Assembly: GCA_021731025.1 (NCBI GenBank)
Contig: JAKFYD010000049.1
Span: 1 to 33,080, forward strand
DNA length: 33,080 nt
From: Pseudobdellovibrionaceae bacterium
Lineage (GTDB): Bacteria; Bdellovibrionota; Bdellovibrionia; Bdellovibrionales; Bdellovibrionaceae
Reading direction: 5' to 3'
This document shows positions 21,500 through 32,763 of this stretch, piece after piece. The position numbers and the translations under genes were made by a program. Each line of letters opens with the position of its first letter. Positions within the stretch are counted from its first letter, which is position 1. The notes beneath the pieces were generated by a model, which saw only the letters and a list, made by a program, of their open reading frames with translations, was not told the DNA's origin and did no database searches.

Positions 21500-21519
21500 G
21501 AAGATTCCACGGAATAAAA

Positions 21520-21636
21520 TTGAGTGAATTAAAAAAATCACTTCCAGCAAGATTTTTGACGAATGAACCAATTCGAGACTTTGTTAAGTGTCTCGAATTG
21601 AAAGCGTCTAGTATTAAAAATCAAAATCTTTACTAA
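21520..21636 (+). pseudogene. Short gene remnant between lgt and pilin cluster
   Basis: A 38-codon stretch ending at TAA 21634-21636 reads like a real C-terminus: LSELKKSLPARFLTNEPIRDF, then VKCLELKAS. The pattern LSEL--LPARF----IRDF is reminiscent of a segment near the C-terminus of some phosphohexomutases, but the match is from memory and weak. No good start codon or ribosome site exists; a TTG at 21520 is the only option. It may be a leftover of a deleted gene, or a tiny live gene. Confidence 0.3.
21569..21600. promoter_or_regulatory. Perfect 11-bp inverted repeat
   Basis: CAATTCGAGAC (21569-21579) and GTCTCGAATTG (21590-21600) are exact complements around a 10-nt spacer. No T run follows, so it is more like a dimeric operator or an mRNA hairpin than a classical terminator. 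It lies about 65 nt before the first pilin-like gene. Confidence 0.5.
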
Positions 21637-21663
21637 TGCTTTTCATTCCTGTAGTATATAAGC

Positions 21664-22206
21664 ATGGTCAATTTTCTTGTGATGCTGGGATTGATTTCGA
21701 TCTTAGCATCCTTTTTTACGGGGACACTGCTTCAGCAGGGGAAGTTTCAAGGGGCTCAAGATGCTCAATTGGGAGCGCGAGCTATTCGTTATAATTTGAG
21801 CAATCATCTTCAAAATGATGAGGCTTGGTTAAATACCCTCAATGATACTACGAACACTTCTTTGGATTGTTTGCGGGGTGGGACTGCATGTCCTATTGCA
21901 GCTAATCCTATTATTGTTTTTAGAAATGCGGCTAATTCAGAAGTTATTAATAATACCGCGGCGACAAAAGGTTTCAATATTGCGGGAGAGTCTTGCAATA
22001 GTTTTAATGGAGCTTCGGGAGCGGGGGATCCTAATTGTCCTTTTAGGACAGAGATAGCTTGGGAACCAATTTGTACGGGAGCCTGTGTAAATGCATCTAT
22101 GGTTAAGATAGTCGTAAATTTTATTTATTCGACTTCAGGTGAAAAAGGAAATGTTTTTAATGCTGCCAAACACAACATCACGATCGAGCGAAGCAGCTTA
22201 AAGTGA
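21664..22206 (+). CDS. Pilin-like protein without leader peptide
   Basis: This 180-residue protein begins directly with a hydrophobic helix (MVNFLVMLGLISILASFF) that aligns with the N-terminal helix of the next gene's prepilin, but the cleavage site (Gly-Phe-Thr-Leu) and the leader are missing. The rest matches the globular domain of the next gene: SLDCLRGG against SMDCLKDP, a CPFR/CPLR-E-W-P-C segment and several paired Cys. An in-frame TAG at 21652 excludes a longer leader, and no ribosome site is visible. It may be a 5'-truncated copy, or a subunit inserted without prepilin peptidase processing. The next gene starts 10 nt downstream. Confidence 0.65.
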   Translation: MVNFLVMLGLISILASFFTGTLLQQGKFQGAQDAQLGARAIRYNLSNHLQNDEAWLNTLNDTTNTSLDCLRGGTACPIAANPIIVFRNAANSEVINNTAATKGFNIAGESCNSFNGASGAGDPNCPFRTEIAWEPICTGACVNASMVKIVVNFIYSTSGEKGNVFNAAKHNITIERSSLK

Positions 22207-22216
22207 GTAGTATCTT

Positions 22217-24154
22217 ATGGGACGTTGTTTACAGCGCAAATCAGGCGGATTCACGCTTCTTAACTTTATTATAGTTATTGTTTTGACGTCTATCGTGGGT
22301 GCTGTAGTCGGTAGTATTTTTGATGCTTTTTTTGTGCATCAAAAATATTCGACAATTATTAGTAAGCGCCAAGAAATTTTTTACGATGTGATGAGCAGTG
22401 TTTCAGATGATTCAGCTTGGAAGAAGACAGTTGATTCTTTATCAAATACCTCAATGGATTGCCTGAAAGATCCTGTGGATTTTCCATCGCTTCCGACAGC
22501 CGTGCCTTGTGATGACACTTCTGGGGGAAGTTTTAATCTTTTTGATCGCAATGGAAAACTAGTCATTGATACTTTAACGCCAACAGCAGGTTTTCAAGCT
22601 TCAGGCGGAACTTGTAATCAGTTTACATCGGCAGGAAGTGATTTTTGCCCTTTGCGGGCAGAGCTTACTTGGAAACCTTTGTGTACGACGTGCACAAGTA
22701 AACAAATCGAAATCACTTTAATGATTTACTTTACCCCGACGCCAGGCGGTCGTCGCTTTCCTTTTACGAAAAAATTTATTTTGACCAGAAACGTGAGTTT
22801 AACCCCAGATGCGTCGATGGTGGGTGTGGGCTTCAATTTCAGTTGTGCTGTTGTCCGTGGGGGTGTGCAGTGCTGGGGACTAAATAATGAAGGCCAGTTA
22901 GGGAGGCCTGCAGGTTCTCCCGCAGTAAGTAATGTTCCACTGAAGGTCCCAGGGCTAGAAAGTGGAGTGACAGGTTTGTCGGTAGGATATGCGAATGTCT
23001 GTGCGATCCAAAATGGAAATGTGAAGTGTTGGGGGAATAATGCAGGTCAAAAATCGGGGGTAGGACCCGACCCAATTCCACCTACCTTAATTTATCTTCC
23101 CACTTGGGCCCCTTTGGCGAATGTGACTAAGGTAGCAACGGCAGTAAGTCATTCTTGCGCCGTAGCAGGGGGCGCAGCCTATTGTTGGGGCAGCAATCAA
23201 ACGGGGGCGTTGGGATTTAGTGAACCTCCTGGCCTTAGGCATGATGTTGCTAATGGTTCCTTTGGTACCGCACAAGCCGTTTTAGATATGGGAAGTGATG
23301 TTATTTCTATTGCGGCAACTAGTGGTAGTACATGTGCTGTAAAAACTGACGGTAGCGTGATGTGTTGGGGATTAAATGATTATCGCGGAGGAAGCAATGA
23401 TATTTGTGCTGCTCTAACAACCATTGAAATGTTAGGGCAAAGTCGAGTTAATCCAAATGCAAAATTGTGCTATCCCTTTTATGATGAAACAGCAGGTACC
23501 CCGCCACCGCCTGTCGCTTCTCCTCCTGGCCCTGCTAATACATCATCGAATCTAGCCTCCGGTTACGGTGCTTTGTACTCAACTTGTGGACCATTTACAA
23601 TTCTCACTAGAACACTTGCGTGCAATCCACGACCTATTCAACATGAAAGTTTTCCTACAGGTTCTGGAGCAAAAGAAATCGCGGCTTCTTATGGATTCTG
23701 TGTTCTTAAAAATGATAAAACTGTTGCTTGTTGGGGAAGCAATACAGGTTCTCTAGGGCAAGGTCCGTCAAATCCTAATATGGGAAGCAGAGCTGCTCTT
23801 CCTGTCATTAATTTGAATGATGTCACTATGGTCGGTGGATTAGCGAATGCCTACTGTGCCATCCAAGCTGGTAAACTCTATTGTTGGGGTTGGAATGCTT
23901 CGCCGATTAATAATTTGAACATGCCTAATGGAGGAAATCCCTACTGGTTCAGTTCACGGCATACTCCAACTCTAACTCAAGTTCCCGGTAATGTGACCTA
24001 TTTTTCTGGAGGTGGTATTGATCAGACCCTCCATGGTTGTGCAGTCGCAGATAAAAAAGTTTATTGCTGGGGAGACAATACTGTAGGCCAGTTAGGGGAT
24101 GGCACATATACAGGTCGGCAGTACTCTCCGGTCCAAGTGACTCGGTTTCAATAA
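22217..24154 (+). CDS. Prepilin fused to a seven-repeat RCC1 propeller
   Basis: The 645-residue protein starts with a type IV prepilin leader (cleavage after G11, then FTLLN) and a hydrophobic helix to about residue 38. The usual Glu at +5 is Asn. Residues about 45-195 form a Cys-rich pseudopilin domain shared with the upstream gene. Residues about 200-645 contain seven RCC1-type repeats of the form CAV/CAI, then CWG-N-G-LG, each with two Cys about eight to ten residues apart. Seven repeats make a complete beta-propeller. This would place a large propeller at the tip or surface of a pilus-like fibre. Loss of Glu+5 is seen in tip-initiating pseudopilins such as GspK. The role in adhesion is inference. 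Confidence 0.88.
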   Translation: MGRCLQRKSGGFTLLNFIIVIVLTSIVGAVVGSIFDAFFVHQKYSTIISKRQEIFYDVMSSVSDDSAWKKTVDSLSNTSMDCLKDPVDFPSLPTAVPCDDTSGGSFNLFDRNGKLVIDTLTPTAGFQASGGTCNQFTSAGSDFCPLRAELTWKPLCTTCTSKQIEITLMIYFTPTPGGRRFPFTKKFILTRNVSLTPDASMVGVGFNFSCAVVRGGVQCWGLNNEGQLGRPAGSPAVSNVPLKVPGLESGVTGLSVGYANVCAIQNGNVKCWGNNAGQKSGVGPDPIPPTLIYLPTWAPLANVTKVATAVSHSCAVAGGAAYCWGSNQTGALGFSEPPGLRHDVANGSFGTAQAVLDMGSDVISIAATSGSTCAVKTDGSVMCWGLNDYRGGSNDICAALTTIEMLGQSRVNPNAKLCYPFYDETAGTPPPPVASPPGPANTSSNLASGYGALYSTCGPFTILTRTLACNPRPIQHESFPTGSGAKEIAASYGFCVLKNDKTVACWGSNTGSLGQGPSNPNMGSRAALPVINLNDVTMVGGLANAYCAIQAGKLYCWGWNASPINNLNMPNGGNPYWFSSRHTPTLTQVPGNVTYFSGGGIDQTLHGCAVADKKVYCWGDNTVGQLGDGTYTGRQYSPVQVTRFQ

Positions 24155-24250
24155 ATATCTTTGATCTGCGTATCACTTTGAGATCCAGATATTAAATTTC
24201 AGGATTTCAATACTATTTATTGCTATCATATAGATTAAGGGGATTTCTGT

Positions 24251-25384
24251 ATGTTGCGAGCCCAAGTGAACCATTCTGGATTTACATTGCTTGAAACCAT
24301 GGTGGGCGTTGCCATAATGACCGTGGTTGTCTTAGGTGTGCTGCAGATTCTTGGCATGCAGCTAAAAGTTTCAAATACGGCTCGAATAGATGCTGACGTT
24401 TCAAATACTGTTTTCTTAGTCAATGCGGTTTTGAAAAACAGCAACGCTTGTAAAGAAAATATCATTAATTTTGGAAGTAAAAAGATCTCCGTTCCTATCG
24501 TGACGGCAGAAAAGCTCAGTGTTCCTTCGTTAAATTATCCATTAAATGGAGGAAAATTAATTTCTGTTGGTGGTGGTTCAAGTAGTAATGCAGCTCTTTT
24601 AAAAGATATGCATTTGACTAACTTTAAATTACTTTCAAACACGGGTGGCTATAACATTGTTTCGTCGGAACTTAAACTTCAATTTCAAAAACCCAACGCC
24701 GTTGGGGCGCAGGTGACTGAACGCAAAGTGGCCGTGCAACTGCGCGCCGATGCCTCGGGAAATATTTTGGACTGCAGTGGTGAGGGAACTGAGCTTACAG
24801 AATTTCAATTGCAATCCATATGCAAATCCGTAAATGGAACTTTTGATTTTTCAACAAAAGCGTGTAAGCTACCACAGCCTGTTATCCCTCCACCACAGAC
24901 AATTGTGATGCAAATGCCAGTACCGGTCCCTATTGCCGCATCGGGAGCACAACCGGCCTCGGTGAATGGTTCGAACGGCAATGGTGGAATTGGCATTGGT
25001 GGCGGAGGTTCAAATACAGCATCAAATAATGGAACCTCGAACAACAGTGGTGGCGGCGGAAGTTCTTCGCAAACCATTGCAAGTGGAGGAGTTTCTGGGG
25101 GTGGAGGCGGAGTTGGCGCACCGACTGGAACAATATTGTATTTTGAAAATAGAGCTCCCGATGGAGCAGCTTGTATGCGTGCGGGTTCGAACACTTGCCA
25201 AGGCAAGTTAACAACGGCATCAACCTGTGGATTCGATTATGGCTGCTCGAACAACCCCAACGAATCTAACAATGGACATAGCCTTTGCGCAAGCCTGGGA
25301 GGGAGCTCCAGAGAGACAGGCTATTGGACCTGGGAATGTCGGGGTATTCCAAATAAAGACTCAGGCATTCGTGGAACCCCATAG
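24251..25384 (+). CDS. Prepilin with Gly-rich linker and Cys-rich tip
   Basis: This 377-residue protein has a canonical type IV prepilin start: leader to G10, then FTLLE with Glu at +5, and a long hydrophobic helix. A pseudopilin domain (about 45-205) is followed by a Pro-rich then Gly/Ser/Asn-rich linker (about 210-295) and an 80-residue C-terminal domain with six Cys, likely disulfide-bonded (ACMRAGSNTCQGK, TCGFDYGC, WTWECRG). AAGGGGA lies 7 nt before ATG 24251. The architecture is a pilin subunit that holds a small binding domain on a flexible arm. It follows the RCC1 pilin by 96 nt and is likely co-functional. No family name can be given to the tip domain. Confidence 0.85.
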   Translation: MLRAQVNHSGFTLLETMVGVAIMTVVVLGVLQILGMQLKVSNTARIDADVSNTVFLVNAVLKNSNACKENIINFGSKKISVPIVTAEKLSVPSLNYPLNGGKLISVGGGSSSNAALLKDMHLTNFKLLSNTGGYNIVSSELKLQFQKPNAVGAQVTERKVAVQLRADASGNILDCSGEGTELTEFQLQSICKSVNGTFDFSTKACKLPQPVIPPPQTIVMQMPVPVPIAASGAQPASVNGSNGNGGIGIGGGGSNTASNNGTSNNSGGGGSSSQTIASGGVSGGGGGVGAPTGTILYFENRAPDGAACMRAGSNTCQGKLTTASTCGFDYGCSNNPNESNNGHSLCASLGGSSRETGYWTWECRGIPNKDSGIRGTP

Positions 25385-25448
25385 TGTTTCAATGGATTGA
25401 TTATGGCGCAGCTTTCTGCTCGCTAAATAACAAATTTCAATGTGGTTT

Positions 25449-26918
25449 TTATTTTTTTTTCATAATCGAATAACGATTTTGATTAAAGGCAATTTTTCCG
25501 TCTTCAATAAGAGTTTTTAATTTGCGAACAACGGTTCTTAAAGGGATATTAAGATCTTCAGATATTTCTTTAGAAGATAAGTTTTTTCCAACAAGAATTT
25601 TTTCAATTTCGCTTTGAGTGTCATATGAAAAAGTGTCGTCGGTTTGAATTCTCACCTCTAAAATATAAGGATCAATAAAATAAATGCGGTGGCCGTCGTG
25701 TTTAAACCTTATTTTTATCGGAATTGAATTTTCTTTGAGCCAATTCTGCAATCGTTGGATGGCGTTGGCTGTCTTTTTATAAGATGAAACTGGACTGTAA
25801 TGTTCATCCGGAGAAACATAAGTGAATAAGGTTTCGGTTCTAAAAGGAACATAAAAATCAGAGGTCAAAGCTTGCAGTAAGCGGTGAGAAAGTTGTCCCC
25901 TCTTCAGTGAGGCTTCTGAGCGCAAGTCGATTCCCTCGTAAACCTTAAATATTTTTTCCCGCGATGCTTTTTTGAGTGTCGGGTTCCAATGATAAAAGGG
26001 TGGTAATTCGACTGAGATAGGAAATTTTTTTCTTAATTTTTCGCGGTACTTGGAGAAGGGTGTGCCAAAGTAAACTTTGAGAAAAAGATCTTTATCTCCA
26101 TCGATGATCGAGCGGTGAAAGTCGCATTCCCTGACGACGGACCAAAAGCCTTTTTCGACGGAATTTGTTCGAAGTGTTTGTAAATTTGCGATGGCTTTGG
26201 TTTTCGTAGGATCAAATGCATATTGGCAAATGACTTTCCAATACTCCACCATCAATTGGTAATGAGTGGGAAAGGTAGAAAGCATTTTTTCTGCAGAATT
26301 CAAAAGGTTTAAGGCTTGAGAAAATTTATTTTCAGCAAAGAGCAGTTGGGCTCTGAGTTCTAATCCATTCGCCATCAATAAATTATAATCTTGTTTCTTT
26401 GTTTCATTTTCAATTTCATCAAGCAGCGCTTCAGCTTCCCTGTAAAAGACGGAAGAAATATAAGCTTGTGCTAAGTTTGTTTTCGCAACAATTTTTTGGT
26501 AAGGACTTATCTGTTTAAATTCTAAATATCTTTCAAGATAAGGAATTGCATCTTCGTAATCCCATTTGGAAAACAGTGTAAATGCGTAGTAAAGATTTGC
26601 CTCCGGAATAGTTTTAAAATCCAAGCCGCGAAGTATTTTACTAGCTTCAGTATAAGCTCCCAACTGTTGGAGCGTCAGTGCGTATTGGGCAGCAATAGTT
26701 GGTTGGACTGGCTCATTGGTATTAAACATTATGGGGCGTATTAGCTTCGCACTATTTTTAGCCATTCCCGCTCGTACGAGCAGCTGGGAGGCTCGCAAGA
26801 TCAAGCGGTAAGGAACTGCGCTTGGGGTAAATAAACTCAATTGTTTTTTTGCCTGTTGATGATCACCTTTTCGAATGAGTTGTTCGATGGTGTCTATGAG
26901 TTCTTCCGTAATGTTCAT
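25449..26918 (-). CDS. TPR protein with C-terminal winged-helix domain
   Basis: This 489-residue protein consists of helical TPR-like repeats (about 1-310), a middle domain (about 335-430) that resembles the winged helix of OmpR/BTAD-type regulators (ANAIQRLQNWLKEN, then KIRFKHDGHRIYFID), and a C-terminal helix-turn-helix with wing (about 447-489, LSSKEISEDLNIPLRTVVRKL). There is no signal peptide. It is best read as a cytoplasmic transcription regulator with a protein-binding TPR sensor part. It is divergent from the first lipoprotein gene, and the gap of 115 nt contains a copy of the shared 16-nt motif. Regulation of the lipoprotein cluster is inferred. Confidence 0.8.
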   Translation of the reverse strand: MNITEELIDTIEQLIRKGDHQQAKKQLSLFTPSAVPYRLILRASQLLVRAGMAKNSAKLIRPIMFNTNEPVQPTIAAQYALTLQQLGAYTEASKILRGLDFKTIPEANLYYAFTLFSKWDYEDAIPYLERYLEFKQISPYQKIVAKTNLAQAYISSVFYREAEALLDEIENETKKQDYNLLMANGLELRAQLLFAENKFSQALNLLNSAEKMLSTFPTHYQLMVEYWKVICQYAFDPTKTKAIANLQTLRTNSVEKGFWSVVRECDFHRSIIDGDKDLFLKVYFGTPFSKYREKLRKKFPISVELPPFYHWNPTLKKASREKIFKVYEGIDLRSEASLKRGQLSHRLLQALTSDFYVPFRTETLFTYVSPDEHYSPVSSYKKTANAIQRLQNWLKENSIPIKIRFKHDGHRIYFIDPYILEVRIQTDDTFSYDTQSEIEKILVGKNLSSKEISEDLNIPLRTVVRKLKTLIEDGKIAFNQNRYSIMKKK

Positions 26919-26965
26919 AGGGGAATATTAAAGGTAAGTCTCATTTTAGTACAGAATCGCGTATA

Positions 26966-26981
26966 GGCTGCGCCAAAATGT
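26966..26981 (+). promoter_or_regulatory. Shared upstream motif, copy A
   Basis: GGCTGCGCCAAAATGT lies 68 nt before the ATG of the 27034 lipoprotein gene. Copies B and C before the next two paralogues differ only at one position. The distance to the start codon is conserved. Confidence 0.75.
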
Positions 26982-27033
26982 GTATTAAAGTCCTCTAGAT
27001 GCGACTTAAGATTTTGTGTTAGACTAAAGTCTG

Positions 27034-28521
27034 ATGAGTAACTCCTTTAAGAAGTCATTTTGGCTTTTCGCCTTCCTTTTTTTCATTGCATTGCCATTTC
27101 ACAATTGCACTGTTGATAAAAATATTCGCTTTACTGATGCTTCGTTAAGCAAAATCAGCGACTCCCTTCGGTCAGAGTCCAATGGAAGTGGTGGAGCTTA
27201 CCTTGGAAAGCCCATAGAGGGCGAATACATTCGAAAATTTCCGAGTTATTTATGTCAAACATCTCCCGTCGGAGAACAAGGTCAACTTTTAGTTAAGAAT
27301 GATATCAAAATCATCAGCGATAATTGCAACATGAAAGATATCCAATTTAATTTCACTGACGCTGTGGTTAACTTTTCTGATTACAATCAAGATTACCTAG
27401 CAGTGGGTTCGTCCATTTATGAGCTTAAAAAAACCTCATTGAAAGATTTTCCTGTCACTGAAGTTTGGTGTAGCACCAAACAAAAGGATTTCAATTTAGA
27501 TGTCGTAACGAAAGTTGATAATTTGGTCAAATCTGCAAAAGCAAAAATTTATTTATCAATCAATAAGAAAGCAAGACAGACCGAGCTCTTTGAGGTTGAT
27601 CGCTCAGTTGAAGACAAAACTTTGACCTATTTCTCGAAGAGTTTAACCCTTAAGGTAGATAAACCATTGTCTTCGAACCAATTGTCTTCAGGCCACTTCG
27701 AAACGATGGTGGATGACACTTTTTTCAGTGGTGATCTCAACTGCCGTGTTACAAGCTCTGCACCTATCGAAGACATGGGCACGGCTCTGACAACTTTATC
27801 TCCCCTCAATTCATTCATTACTGACCAACAAGAATCACTATGTGGCCATGCCGGTATTATAGCCTGTGACAATCTCGAGGATCGAACCAGTGCTGCAGAT
27901 TTAGGTCGGGCTAAATCTTTCAATTTAGGCTGGCAATGGGAGCCAGGAGGATACAATATTTCTAATGTTAGTTTTGATGGCAGCAAGAGTTTTGAAGCTA
28001 TAAATGCCGTTAATGGCAGTGGCACCGGATCTATTGGTTTTCCTTTTCCTGCGACGTCCGAGATTTATGTTAGATATTATGCTAAATGGTCGGCGAATTT
28101 TGTTTTTTCTCCGCAGTCCACAGGTTTATTTTCAATTAATGGTTCGAATGGCAGTTTAACCATGACATCGGTATTTGATAGAAATCACAAATTGAATTTT
28201 AATATGGGCAGTGGAAGCTACACTTCAAATTTTCAGCCTAACACCAATGAATGGTATTGCCTGGAAGTGCATTTAAAGTCTGCGTCGTCTCAGACAATTC
28301 CAGATGGTGTAGCCGAGATGTGGGTTAATGGAAACAAGATCATTGAATCGCCACCGCTGGCTCTTGTTGACACTATGTATGTTTGGGCCTTCTATGGGAA
28401 TTGGTACTGTGCGGACGCAGACAATAATTCCATTTGTGATAATCCAGCGGACACCCATCCAAAACAATCTATCTTTTACGATAATATCGTCATTGCCAAA
28501 CAGCGAGTGGGCTGTTTTTAA
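27034..28521 (+). CDS. Lipoprotein 1, two-domain, ConA-like C-terminus
   Basis: This 495-residue protein has a lipoprotein signal with an atypical lipobox ending FHNC (C25). Residues about 60-260 form a beta-rich domain with four Cys (YLC, DNC, VWC, LNC) not found in its four neighbours. Residues about 285-495 match the concanavalin-like domain of the cluster, with YVRYYAKWS, EWYCLEVHLK--S, DG-AEMWVNG and a closing SIFYDNIVIAK. The pattern resembles polysaccharide-lyase-like jelly rolls, which bind or cleave glycans; no catalytic residues can be assigned. It is the first gene of the cluster, next to the divergent regulator. Likely located on the cell surface or in the periplasm. Confidence 0.82.
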   Translation: MSNSFKKSFWLFAFLFFIALPFHNCTVDKNIRFTDASLSKISDSLRSESNGSGGAYLGKPIEGEYIRKFPSYLCQTSPVGEQGQLLVKNDIKIISDNCNMKDIQFNFTDAVVNFSDYNQDYLAVGSSIYELKKTSLKDFPVTEVWCSTKQKDFNLDVVTKVDNLVKSAKAKIYLSINKKARQTELFEVDRSVEDKTLTYFSKSLTLKVDKPLSSNQLSSGHFETMVDDTFFSGDLNCRVTSSAPIEDMGTALTTLSPLNSFITDQQESLCGHAGIIACDNLEDRTSAADLGRAKSFNLGWQWEPGGYNISNVSFDGSKSFEAINAVNGSGTGSIGFPFPATSEIYVRYYAKWSANFVFSPQSTGLFSINGSNGSLTMTSVFDRNHKLNFNMGSGSYTSNFQPNTNEWYCLEVHLKSASSQTIPDGVAEMWVNGNKIIESPPLALVDTMYVWAFYGNWYCADADNNSICDNPADTHPKQSIFYDNIVIAKQRVGCF

Positions 28522-28560
28522 AAATACTTTCTAAGTATCAAATTGAAACATCAGAATGAA

Positions 28561-28576
28561 GGCTGCGCCAAATTGT
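28561..28576 (+). promoter_or_regulatory. Shared upstream motif, copy B
   Basis: GGCTGCGCCAAATTGT lies 68 nt before ATG 28629. A second conserved block, GTTA-CATA--TTATGGGG, is shared with copy C further downstream, just before the start codon. Confidence 0.75.
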
Positions 28577-28628
28577 AGGCCTAACCTCATAAGGGTTCTT
28601 GTTAACATACTTTATGGGGGAATCACTT

Positions 28629-29552
28629 ATGAAGTTACGTAATGCTTTATACATTTTTTGCTCGATAATTTTGATTTTCATGTTTAACAACTGCAGCCAA
28701 TTCAAAACGATGACGGATATCAATCCTTCTGAGAATCAGGGCATACAAAACTCTAATAGTGTAAATCAACCTATTCCTGTACCTGCGCCACAAAGTTCGC
28801 CAGTTCCAGCGCCTTCTTCAGGAAGTGTTAACAACACAAAAGCATGGCCCAATGAACCAACGAACTTTAAAGTAATTAATGACTGGGGTTTTGACACACT
28901 CAATGGTGGGGGGTGGACAAGTGAGCCAGGTGATGCACGTATAGTCTTTGACTCTACGGCACCTATGTCAAAAGGCAATGTGTATGAACAGCGATACGCG
29001 ACAGGATTTGTTGGAGGAATTTCTCCTAGCAATTTATGGACAGTATTTTCTCCAAGAAGTGAGCTGTACTTAGGGTTTTGGTGGAAAATGAATAAGGATT
29101 GGCAACAAAGTCCGGCTAATTTAAGCAAGATTATCTTTGTAAGTACAAATGTGAGTAATTCGGTTTTCTTCTATGTGAGAGGGTTACAAGGTGGTCCTTA
29201 CTCAATCGGAATGCAATATCAAAATTCATATATTGATAACGGTGAACTGGCCGGTTTCCCAGGGATTGTAGGTACGATAGATTTAGGTGGAAATCATTCA
29301 ACCCAAGTAACCGCTGGAGAGTGGTATCGTCTTGAAGTTCATATAAAAAAAAGCACGAATCCAAAATCTAAGGATGGTTTCATTCGATTTTGGGTCAATG
29401 GCCAACTCAATGGTGATTATCAAGGAATGAATTTCGAGACCTACGATTTTACCTCGGTTCCGATAGTACCCATTTTTGGAGGTACAGGCGGGGTCAAAGC
29501 TCATACCGATTATTTTTGGTATGATCACATTCACATCAGTTCACCAAATTAA
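28629..29552 (+). CDS. Lipoprotein 2, ConA-like domain
   Basis: This 307-residue protein has a signal ending FNNC (C22), a Pro/Gln/Ser-rich spacer (about 35-75) and a concanavalin-like domain (about 75-307). Shared landmarks are WPNEPTNFK, YLGFWWK, EWYRLEVHIK--S, DGFIRFWVNG and the closing YFWYDHIHIS. ATG 28629 is preferred to earlier in-frame codons because GGGGGA lies 7 nt upstream and the signal begins MKLR. The N-terminal 35 residues are nearly the same as in lipoprotein 3, pointing to a recent tandem duplication that included the promoter region. The extra in-frame leader seen upstream is not protein-like. Function: glycan binding or lysis, inferred. Confidence 0.82.
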   Translation: MKLRNALYIFCSIILIFMFNNCSQFKTMTDINPSENQGIQNSNSVNQPIPVPAPQSSPVPAPSSGSVNNTKAWPNEPTNFKVINDWGFDTLNGGGWTSEPGDARIVFDSTAPMSKGNVYEQRYATGFVGGISPSNLWTVFSPRSELYLGFWWKMNKDWQQSPANLSKIIFVSTNVSNSVFFYVRGLQGGPYSIGMQYQNSYIDNGELAGFPGIVGTIDLGGNHSTQVTAGEWYRLEVHIKKSTNPKSKDGFIRFWVNGQLNGDYQGMNFETYDFTSVPIVPIFGGTGGVKAHTDYFWYDHIHISSPN

Positions 29553-29596
29553 ATTCTGTCTAAACTTGAGACGATCAAACGACAAATTCCCCTCAG

Positions 29597-29612
29597 GGCT
29601 GCGCCAAATTGT
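29597..29612 (+). promoter_or_regulatory. Shared upstream motif, copy C
   Basis: GGCTGCGCCAAATTGT, identical to copy B, lies 67 nt before ATG 29664. Confidence 0.75.
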
Positions 29613-29663
29613 GGGGCAGCTACATGGGGTTTATTGTTAGCATATGTTATGGGGAAATCATTT

Positions 29664-30674
29664 ATGAAACTACGAAGTGTTATATTCATTGTTTGTTCTT
29701 TAGTTCTAGTTTTCATGTTCAATAATTGTGGCCAGTTTAAAACGATGACAGACATCAATCCTTCGGGAAATCAGGCGCTACAAAGTTCAAGTGGTGGAGA
29801 TCAGCCAGGCCCAATGCCGATGCCTCAACTCACTCCTCAGCCGAATCCATCAAATCCTAACCCAGCACCATTGCCGTCTCCTGTTTTACAATCAGGTATT
29901 TCTCCGAATATGCCAAATACTCTTCATGAAATTCTTCATCATGATTTTTCAACAAAAGACGGAAAGGGCAATGGATGTACGGCCTATTACCCTACAGGCA
30001 GTCAAATTCTCAGCGATCCCAATGAGCCTAGCTCGGCTCCCTACTTTATGAGAAATTTAAAGCCCGCTGGAGCCTCTCAAGGTGGAACTATGGTGGATTG
30101 TGTTCATCCTCAAAAAGGAGAAGTCTATTACGCGTTCACTTGGCGCCCGAGCAACCCATTCGGTGGTTATGATAATGGCGCGAACAAAATGGTTTTTTAT
30201 ATCTCGAATATACCGAATTCTTCAGGAGGAGCTTGGGGATCACATTATTTTGGAGCAGAACCAGGTAAAAGAGTCGTTAATTTTTTTCTTCAAGGAGGAG
30301 AAGTGGGCAATTGCCATGTCGATCATATTTACGGCGATTGCGCAGCTTCAACGTCCATGGTTTTCCTCCCCAATGTTGACACCTCACCTGTGCTCGAAGG
30401 TCAATGGCACCGAGTAGAAGTTTATTTTAAAAGAAGCTCAAACGGCTCTTCTAAAGATGGCATCTTAAAAATGTGGGTCGATGGATCACTGCGTATCAGT
30501 CATAATGATGTCAATACTCCTCAGTACGATTGGATGTCCATTCAAACCAATCACACTTGGGACGGTCAGTGTGCGATGAGAAATTCTAACTTGCCGTCAA
30601 CAACCTTTCCTAATGATTGCCGCCCTTATGATGACTACCATGATTTTGGAGATTTCTTTGTTGGAGCAAAATAA
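29664..30674 (+). CDS. Lipoprotein 3, ConA-like domain
   Basis: This 336-residue protein has a signal ending FNNC (C22), the GQFKTMTDINPS stretch also present in lipoprotein 2, a Pro-rich spacer (about 45-75) and a concanavalin-like domain (about 80-336). Landmarks are YYAFTWRPS, QWHRVEVYFKRSS, DGILKMWVDG and a closing YHDFGDFFVG. Cys residues in the domain (for example GNCHVDHIYGDC) may form disulfides. A GGGGA before ATG 29664 fixes the start. The signal and spacer match lipoprotein 2 better than the folded domain does, so the two copies share a display module but may recognise different ligands. Confidence 0.82.
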   Translation: MKLRSVIFIVCSLVLVFMFNNCGQFKTMTDINPSGNQALQSSSGGDQPGPMPMPQLTPQPNPSNPNPAPLPSPVLQSGISPNMPNTLHEILHHDFSTKDGKGNGCTAYYPTGSQILSDPNEPSSAPYFMRNLKPAGASQGGTMVDCVHPQKGEVYYAFTWRPSNPFGGYDNGANKMVFYISNIPNSSGGAWGSHYFGAEPGKRVVNFFLQGGEVGNCHVDHIYGDCAASTSMVFLPNVDTSPVLEGQWHRVEVYFKRSSNGSSKDGILKMWVDGSLRISHNDVNTPQYDWMSIQTNHTWDGQCAMRNSNLPSTTFPNDCRPYDDYHDFGDFFVGAK

Positions 30675-30760
30675 ATTGATTGCGGCTAAGTAATTGATGT
30701 TTTTGAATCTCAGTCTGAGACGGTTTGAATATTTGGATATTCCTATTGCAAGCTTATCTT

Positions 30761-30766
30761 TATAAT
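30761..30766 (+). promoter_or_regulatory. Candidate -10 element (TATAAT)
   Basis: A perfect TATAAT lies 18 nt before the likely GTG start of lipoprotein 4. No convincing -35 is seen at 16-18 nt upstream. The 16-nt motif of copies A-C is absent here. Confidence 0.35.
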
Positions 30767-30783
30767 AAAATATAGGGGTGGCA

Positions 30784-31791
30784 GTGAAGAATCCTTCTTC
30801 AATTTTTATAAAAAATTATTTTATTGTTATCACGCTCGGCATTCTTCTTTTATCTTACAACAATTGCAGCCGCTTTAACACGATGGAAGATCCAAGTTTC
30901 ACTTCTCTTGGTCAATCTGCGCAAAACAGTACGAATAATAATGATCCCTCACAAATGACACCTTCGCCTCAACCGATTCCTCAGCAGCCTCAACCTTCCC
31001 CGCAGCCGTCGCAAACAATAACTAATGTAAACAACATTTCGTTTCGTCCTAACGAACCCGCAGGCCTAACGAAAATCATCGATTGTCCTTTCACTGATTC
31101 TATCTGCGAATTGTGGGATACTTATAAGAGCGCGAAGTTCGCTCCGGTGTCTGTTCCCGGTTCGTCTGGACCACCGGCTATGGCTCTTGATAATTCATTG
31201 GAAGTGGGCGCATCGACGGGTGGTGGGCAAATGGGATATAATTATTCAGCTGGAGTCAAAGAAGTCTATACAGCTTTTTGGTGGAGCACTAACGCTGATT
31301 TCATGGGGATGTGTAATAACGGTAACAAAATGCTTTTTATTAGAAATGCGACGGATAATAATTTTCTTCTTTGGTCAGGTGCTCCTGGAGAAAAGAAAAA
31401 ATACTTCAAGTGGGCCATGCAAGCGTCCTACGATAACTGTGGGCATCCCGGCGAATACGGAATGTGTTTCACGAAAGGTGACGGTACCGGCTGGTTCGAA
31501 CCCAATGGCGAGCACGATGGCGGCGTCGAAGTTAATTCGGGCTGGCATCTTATTGAAATCTATTTAAAATCAAGCACCTCGAAAACCTCTCGGGATGGTG
31601 TCATTCGTTGGGCTGTCGATGGAAAGATTGTTGGTAATTATCCAACGGTGAATGTATCACCTGGCGGCTTTGAAGACTTCAATATCACTCACACCTGGGA
31701 TGGCAGCAGTTGTTTAGTGCCACCTTATCGGGACATGAGCAAAGCTTGGCATCATTACTTTGATCACCTGTACATGTCCGTTCGTAAATAA
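30784..31791 (+). CDS. Lipoprotein 4, ConA-like domain
   Basis: This 335-residue protein has a signal ending YNNC (C28) followed by SRFNTM, a Gln/Pro repeat spacer (about 55-85, PQP/SPQ units) and a concanavalin-like domain (about 90-335). Landmarks are FRPNEPAGLTK, YTAFWWSTN, GWHLIEIYLKSST, DGVIRWAVDG and HHYFDHLYMS. GTG 30784 is preferred over GTG 30778 because AGGGG lies about 5 nt upstream. Lipoprotein 5 follows after 18 nt, so they form an operon. The domain holds a Cys pair (IDCPFTDSIC) in the same place as in lipoprotein 5. Confidence 0.82.
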   Translation: MKNPSSIFIKNYFIVITLGILLLSYNNCSRFNTMEDPSFTSLGQSAQNSTNNNDPSQMTPSPQPIPQQPQPSPQPSQTITNVNNISFRPNEPAGLTKIIDCPFTDSICELWDTYKSAKFAPVSVPGSSGPPAMALDNSLEVGASTGGGQMGYNYSAGVKEVYTAFWWSTNADFMGMCNNGNKMLFIRNATDNNFLLWSGAPGEKKKYFKWAMQASYDNCGHPGEYGMCFTKGDGTGWFEPNGEHDGGVEVNSGWHLIEIYLKSSTSKTSRDGVIRWAVDGKIVGNYPTVNVSPGGFEDFNITHTWDGSSCLVPPYRDMSKAWHHYFDHLYMSVRK

Positions 31792-31809
31792 AGATCTAGG
31801 GTTGGTAAA

Positions 31810-32763
31810 ATGAACTTTAAAAAATATGTTTTAGTTTTCTTTACTTTGCTAGCGATAATTTTTTTTATGAATTGCAGTCGATTTGCTACTGTTGATCAAT
31901 GGAATACAAATTCACTGAATGAGTCTTCTTTAAACAGCCCTGTTGATGATAATCAGTTGGATGAAGTTCCTCTGCCACAGATGAATCCTCAGCCATCTCC
32001 ACAACCGATGCCGGCTCCTTCATCCGTTGAGGCTTGGCCTAATGAGCCTAAAAATTTTAAAGTAAGAATTGATTGCGGTTTTGAAACTCCGACTTGCGAT
32101 GGAAAATTGTTGGATCCCTACAAAACGGCGGGGAATAATTTGACGACACAAATGGATATGACGGCTCCACTTTCTGGACCTCACGTGATGCGCTCGACGG
32201 AGAATTATAAGACTGGTAATGGAGGAACACAACTTCATTACATCGATAAAGATCTTGTTAAGGAAATTTACGTTGGGTTTTGGTGGCGCACAAATCCTGA
32301 GTTTACTGGCAATAGTCCGAACGCAAATAAAACTTTTTTTATTCGTGGAACCCAGGGTGGACAAAATGGAGTATTTTATTTGCGAACTAATCCTGGCGAT
32401 CCCAAAGTGCTGTACTGGTCGACTCAAATGGCAAATAATTTAGATCAGTGTCATGGGGCTCCTGATCAAGATGCTTGCTGGCCCAATGTAAATACAACGC
32501 CGATTGTTCCCGGGAAATGGTACCGGGTCGAAGTCTACATGAAAGCGAGCAGTTGCCCGACTTGCCACGATGGTGCAGTAAAATGGTGGATTACGCCGAA
32601 AGGTGGTGCACCTCTTTTACAAGGCGATTTCCCTAACTTTGCCTATGGTCCACTTGTTAACGAGTGGCTTTGGTCAGAGACTTGGGATGGGGCAGGTAAC
32701 GGAGCCGGCTTTAGCAGTGATCCTGCACATTTTATAGATCATTTGCGCATTAGCATGCCTTAA
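31810..32763 (+). CDS. Lipoprotein 5, ConA-like domain
   Basis: This 317-residue protein has a short signal ending FMNC (C22) followed by SRFAT, a Pro/Gln/Met-rich spacer (about 55-75) and a concanavalin-like domain (about 78-317). Landmarks are WPNEPKNFKVRIDC, YVGFWWRTN, KWYRVEVYMKASS, DGAVKWW and a closing HFIDHLRIS. The segment CPTCHDG adds Cys residues not present in the relatives. ATG 31810 lies 18 nt after the stop of lipoprotein 4. Its TAA overlaps the stop of hisS on the other strand through TTAA. Glycan recognition or cleavage is an inference from fold resemblance. Confidence 0.82.
   Translation: MNFKKYVLVFFTLLAIIFFMNCSRFATVDQWNTNSLNESSLNSPVDDNQLDEVPLPQMNPQPSPQPMPAPSSVEAWPNEPKNFKVRIDCGFETPTCDGKLLDPYKTAGNNLTTQMDMTAPLSGPHVMRSTENYKTGNGGTQLHYIDKDLVKEIYVGFWWRTNPEFTGNSPNANKTFFIRGTQGGQNGVFYLRTNPGDPKVLYWSTQMANNLDQCHGAPDQDACWPNVNTTPIVPGKWYRVEVYMKASSCPTCHDGAVKWWITPKGGAPLLQGDFPNFAYGPLVNEWLWSETWDGAGNGAGFSSDPAHFIDHLRISMP

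Follow-up and report, generated by a model that had tools for sequence, protein, structure and literature searches.

Five lipoprotein genes, here called A to E, stand in a row in a 33,080-nt stretch of Pseudobdellovibrionaceae DNA (contig JAKFYD010000049.1; the whole stretch is referred to as the window), and the first of them is oriented divergently from the gene of a TPR/winged-helix protein. A 16-nt motif recurs ahead of A, B, and C, which raises the questions of whether it is a regulatory site and which protein would recognize it. The original prediction had read it as either a promoter-linked operator or an alternative sigma factor element. The operator part of this reading stood up, as the motif is intergenic, lies at a fixed distance from the start codons, is conserved in comparison with its flanks, and is confined to this cluster, while the sigma part was not supported by the number of copies, the spacing to the −10 candidates, or the fit to known consensuses. 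On balance, we lean towards the view that the divergent regulator encoded at 25449-26918 uses the 16-mer as its operator and activates A, B, and C.

Motif Copies and Their Spacing

The 16-mer GGCTGCGCCAAA[A/T]TGT has three exact matches in the window, all on the forward strand (Table 1), and a search allowing up to 3 mismatches found no further match in the window. It had been claimed that the copies lie 67-68 nt before the start codons and that the first one falls into the intergenic region of the regulator. Both statements are correct, and copy A is located in the divergent gap 47 nt from the start codon of the regulator. The distances were counted from the ATG codons of A, B, and C as read in the sequence. 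For B and C, the mechanical list of open reading frames gives TTG starts 30 nt further up (28599 for B); the ATG codons were chosen as the starts because of the positions of the mature lipoboxes. The small inverted repeat GGC-TGC-GCC that had been pointed out within the motif is present, but its arms of only 3 bp are unremarkable and carry no weight. No clear palindrome and no second half-site were seen in the motif.

Table 1. Features of the motif-bearing gene cluster, with positions in the window.
Feature	Position	Strand	Details
Motif copy A	26966-26981	+	GGCTGCGCCAAAATGT; 68 nt before the ATG of gene A; in the divergent intergenic region
Motif copy B	28561-28576	+	GGCTGCGCCAAATTGT; 68 nt before the ATG of gene B
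Motif copy C	29597-29612	+	GGCTGCGCCAAATTGT; 67 nt before the ATG of gene C
Divergent regulator	25449-26918	−	Pfam TPR_19 (8e-8) and HTH_11 (0.001); AlphaFold2 model; fold searches
Regulator domains			Predicted TPR superhelix, residues 1-298; OmpR/PhoB-like winged helix, ~332-415; MarR/ArsR/IclR-like winged helix, ~428-489
Gene A	27034-28521	+	Partner lipoprotein; lipobox HNC, SNGSGGAYLGK signature, two conserved Cys
Gene B	28629-29552	+	Lipoprotein, polysaccharide-lyase-like, PF14099 (1.9e-7)
Gene C	29664-30674	+	Paralog and tandem duplicate of B, PF14099 (3.1e-6)
Gene D	30778-31791	+	Paralogous lipoprotein without motif
Gene E	31810-32763	+	Paralogous lipoprotein without motif; 19 nt after D
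Candidate −10, gene A	27007-27025	+	TAAGAT at 27007 (4/6) or TAGACT at 27020 (4/6), weak −35; consensus match only
Candidate −10, gene B	28606-28611	+	CATACT (4/6), −35 2/6; consensus match only
Candidate −10, gene C	29643-29648	+	TATGTT (4/6), −35 3/6; consensus match only
Candidate −10, gene D (motif-less, for contrast)	30761-30766	+	TATAAT (6/6); consensus match only

The Divergent Regulator

The structure of the regulator was modeled by AlphaFold2 using an alignment of 25 relatives, with a mean pLDDT of 91.3, and the C-terminal part modeled alone reached 89.7. In the fold searches, the first winged helix (residues 3-86 of the C-terminal model) matched ArlR, SaeR, and CosR with a Z-score of 9.5 at 2.2-2.5 Å over 77-79 residues, and the second matched proteins of the MarR/ArsR/IclR/Zalpha type with a Z-score of about 10 over 55-62 residues. 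The TPR part matched Rap Phi3T (Z-score 21.8, 5.2 Å, 309 residues), NprR (20.1), and PlcR (15.9); as almost equal scores were obtained for LGN, APC/C subunits, and MalT domain III, this match shows the fold and not kinship. A sequence search of the PDB returned only TPR and generic winged-helix matches. The VIA-align tables cover selected folds only, so the absence of the family from them is uninformative. On these models, the protein is a plausible DNA-binding regulator, and the TPR domain would be its sensory part.

The predicted architecture differs from those of the systems that it resembles. With OmpR/PhoB-type response regulators such as ArlR, SaeR, and CosR the protein shares the OmpR-type winged helix, but their receiver domain with its phosphorylatable Asp is absent here, being replaced by the TPR part, and a second winged helix is added. 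With the RRNPP peptide sensors (Rap, NprR, PlcR, PrgX) it shares the fold of the TPR superhelix and the putative layout of a TPR-gated transcription factor; in RRNPP proteins, however, the HTH is N-terminal and precedes the TPR, whereas the order is reversed here, with the TPR at residues 1-298 and the winged helices after residue 330.

Regulator-Lipoprotein Pairs

A search with the single regulator sequence found no related loci, whereas an alignment query found 36 (L111-L146). Of 60 related genomes, 16 encode relatives with 23-33% identity, and a single genome can carry as many as 12 of them; those in the named collections belong to MAGs labelled Bdellovibrionota, Bdellovibrionales, and Oligoflexia, and in two cases Deltaproteobacteria. 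The regulator matched the family profile with an E-value of 5.8e-185, although its own sequence is a member of that profile; independent single-sequence matches go down to 1e-60. The assignment to the family is based on full-length similarity together with an adjoining GNGxGYxGK lipoprotein, which here is gene A, divergent and about 113-115 nt away.

A striking number of the genes next to the regulator relatives encode lipoproteins with the pattern ...FQNC...GNGxGYxGK...C...C. A profile (A4) of the N-terminal domain of these lipoproteins gave 47 strong matches in 11 genomes, and the regulator is present in all 11. As many as 32 of the 47 lie less than 3 kb from a regulator, compared with 0.7 expected. 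When the lipoproteins tagged as profile members were left out, the count was 27 of 42; five members were tagged, the others coming from outside genomes or possibly being untagged, so some circularity remains in these numbers. The gene order in the 32 pairs was divergent in 13, regulator-first in 9, lipoprotein-first in 9, and convergent in one. Neither the regulator family nor its lipoprotein partner had a match in NCBIfam, and a literature search found no paper describing such a pair. The pairing of a TPR/double-winged-helix family with a lipoprotein carrying a lipobox and then GNGxGYxGK is thus apparently undescribed. In the same genome, a distant second TPR/winged-helix protein of 463 aa is encoded on contig 9 (1458-2849), not beside such a lipoprotein, and contig 11 (698-1798) encodes a second GYxGK-type lipoprotein, without the lyase-like domain, the motif, or an adjoining regulator.

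In gene A, the partner domain is fused to a C-terminal polysaccharide-lyase-like domain related to the domain of B-E. Gene A therefore joins the family of regulator partners to that of the lipoproteins of this cluster, and this link would account for how B and C could have come under the same operator. The likeness to PF14099 polysaccharide lyase lipoproteins is clearest for B, which at 31.7 bits exceeds the Pfam cut-off of 29.9 bits, while C is just under it and A is weak; the domains found here may have a binding rather than a cleaving role. The family of gene B has about 25 matches in its own genome (28629-32763 and 20 further places), and no homolog was detected in a congener (G001, 81% complete). 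Genes D and E are probably co-transcribed.

Distribution of the Motif

The genome-wide search that had been proposed as a check found no scatter of the motif through coding regions. The genome (3.49 Mb in 81 contigs) contains three copies, all in this cluster, and no further copy with one mismatch. There are two copies with two mismatches, both inside coding genes, which by names read from the sequence are BamA-like and transglutaminase-like. The exact motif was absent from the 140 other genomes of the order (141 were compared, including its own), and with one mismatch allowed, the 60 relatives gave isolated single matches at about the level of a reversed-pattern control. The motif was also missing from 13 upstream regions of gene B-family paralogs outside A, B, and C, including those of D and E, where the best matches had 4-8 mismatches. 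Two candidates of this class, GGCTGCTCAAAATTAA located 78 nt before one polysaccharide-lyase-like gene and AGTTACGCCAATATGA located 65 nt before another, were rejected as too weak.

Loci encoding other regulators of this family likewise lacked the motif, as judged by the exact search of the order and a comparison of the divergent gaps, and no shared motif was seen in the divergent regulator/lipoprotein gaps of the relatives. This is expected if the binding specificities differ, the identity being 23-30%; it also means that the link between regulator and motif is drawn from position. The divergent gap between the regulator and lipoprotein genes is 97.7% identical in one species pair, L118/L119, compared with 90% for both genes and 92-94% for other gaps, a modest excess. 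The pair L129/L133 showed no excess intergenic conservation, and in the pair L126/L128 the sequences are too similar for footprinting.

A motif private to the cluster and a predicted DNA-binding regulator encoded divergently next door make this regulator the likely ligand. The arrangement is like that of divergent local regulators in general, which stand head-to-head with their first target and have their site repeated before neighboring units only; what differs here is the N-terminal TPR with two C-terminal winged helices and the lipoprotein partner. A genuine operator of A, B, and C could also be read by another transcription factor encoded elsewhere, as the conservation and position of the motif are independent of the identity of the binding protein, and the TPR/winged-helix protein of contig 9 would be one candidate. 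However, an outside factor usually has sites elsewhere, and none was found within one mismatch in 3.49 Mb, while a site private to the cluster is most simply explained by the neighboring regulator. We therefore regard recognition by another factor as unlikely, though worth keeping in mind.

Conservation Against the Flanks

In ungapped comparisons, the flanks of copies A and B are identical at 10/40 nt upstream and 5/20 nt directly downstream, and those of B and C at 13/40 and 5/20 nt, whereas 15-16 of the 16 positions inside the motif are identical among the copies. The motif is a conservation island between unlike flanks, and the earlier remark that most of the sequence between copy A and its start codon differs proved accurate. 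Genes B and C share a duplication of 184 nt, 74% identical, which begins 11 nt after the motif. When the upstream regions of A and B were dinucleotide-shuffled 20,000 times, a 15/16 match appeared in 3 trials, and no trial placed it at an equal distance (±1) from the start codon. Applied to 1,259 upstream regions from 56 related regulator loci, this test yielded just two matches, both AT-only. Chance is unlikely to be the origin of the recurrence.

Common descent is the other possible origin, in which case the motif would be left over, with no function today, from gene conversion or the duplication of a promoter as the cluster expanded in tandem. B and C are indeed tandem duplicates, and the C-terminal domain of gene A is related to theirs. 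However, with the downstream flanks reduced to 5/20 identical positions between A and B as well as between B and C, an unconstrained segment would not stay at 15-16/16, and D and E belong to the same cluster without having the motif, which argues that it was not simply carried along. A mere remnant is accordingly improbable.

Promoter Candidates

The best −10-like hexamers begin 41 or 54 nt (A), 45 nt (B), and 46 nt (C) after the start of the motif. Promoter prediction listed no good sigma-70 promoter upstream of A, B, and C, and among the terminator and promoter predictions none scored above shuffles. Just before gene A (27020-27034), a Shine-Dalgarno-like sequence is absent and an in-frame stop lies immediately upstream; if its −10 box were TAGACT at 27020, the mRNA would be nearly leaderless.

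The constant distance to the start codon would also suit a −35-type element of a promoter read by an alternative sigma factor. The −10 candidates, at 41-54 nt from the motif start, are nevertheless too far away for a −35/−10 pair, only three copies exist in the genome, and the consensuses of FliA (TTAAG-N16-CCGATA; PMC3627812), sigma-54, and one ECF-like factor gave no consistent fit, which leaves this explanation very improbable. We give hardly any credence to an action of the motif at the RNA level, whether by folding in the 5′ leader or as the target of a protein or sRNA: a short stem GCTGCGCC/GGGGCAGC is possible in copy C and the leaders of B and C have slightly better folds than their shuffled versions (z −1.55 and −1.08), but copy A has no such stem (z 0.01), the complementary strand differs between the copies, no common structure emerges, and the predicted starts are downstream of the motif, which would place it outside the transcript.

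Proposed Mode of Regulation

According to the operator model that we favor, the regulator would bind GGCTGCGCCAAAWTGT in the gap that it shares with gene A and again upstream of B and of C, and would thereby jointly control three genes for surface lipoproteins, none of which has a strong promoter. The binding of the motif by the regulator, the sign of the regulation, the positions of the promoters, and the signal are what we infer here. Activation would be more likely than repression, because the site, measured from the predicted starts, would be centered at about −45 to −58, and because the matches to the −35 consensus are poor. A center at this distance from the start is typical of activator sites. 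The TPR superhelix could serve as the sensor that gates DNA binding, and copy A, because of its place between the two genes, might allow the regulator to control its own gene as well.

A more speculative extension, which we consider quite improbable, is that the protein is an RRNPP-like sensor, in this case of a Gram-negative lineage of predators, whose TPR binds a peptide of the partner lipoprotein, either the signal peptide after its release or the GNGxGYxGK segment. If this were true, each of the up to a dozen paralogous regulator-lipoprotein pairs per genome would sense the export or fate of its own lipoprotein and tune an operator-driven cluster. A cluster-private operator is ordinary in kind, and the one proposed here would give a concrete DNA target to a seemingly undescribed, multi-copy regulator family, seen, within the reach of the search, in Bdellovibrionota and a few MAGs labelled Deltaproteobacteria. 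Should the pairing be functional, it would represent a lineage-specific control of surface lipoproteins in bacteria many of which are predators, and the TPR fold invites the question of peptide sensing.

Locus Context

Between the convergent genes lgt and hisS (21500-32760), 11.2 kb is taken up by three pilin-like genes, the regulator, and the five lipoprotein genes. In the congener G001 (L169), the block is absent, and the lgt-hisS gap is about 2 kb with two unrelated genes, in a record that is partly masked. The block is thus accessory, gained here or lost in G001. Between two of the pilin-like genes, the gene at 22217-24154 encodes a third pilin-like protein of 645 aa, which has no match in NCBIfam. 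RCC1-type repeats (WGxNxxGQLG) can be read from its sequence, and the protein may be a minor pilin bearing a propeller domain at its tip.
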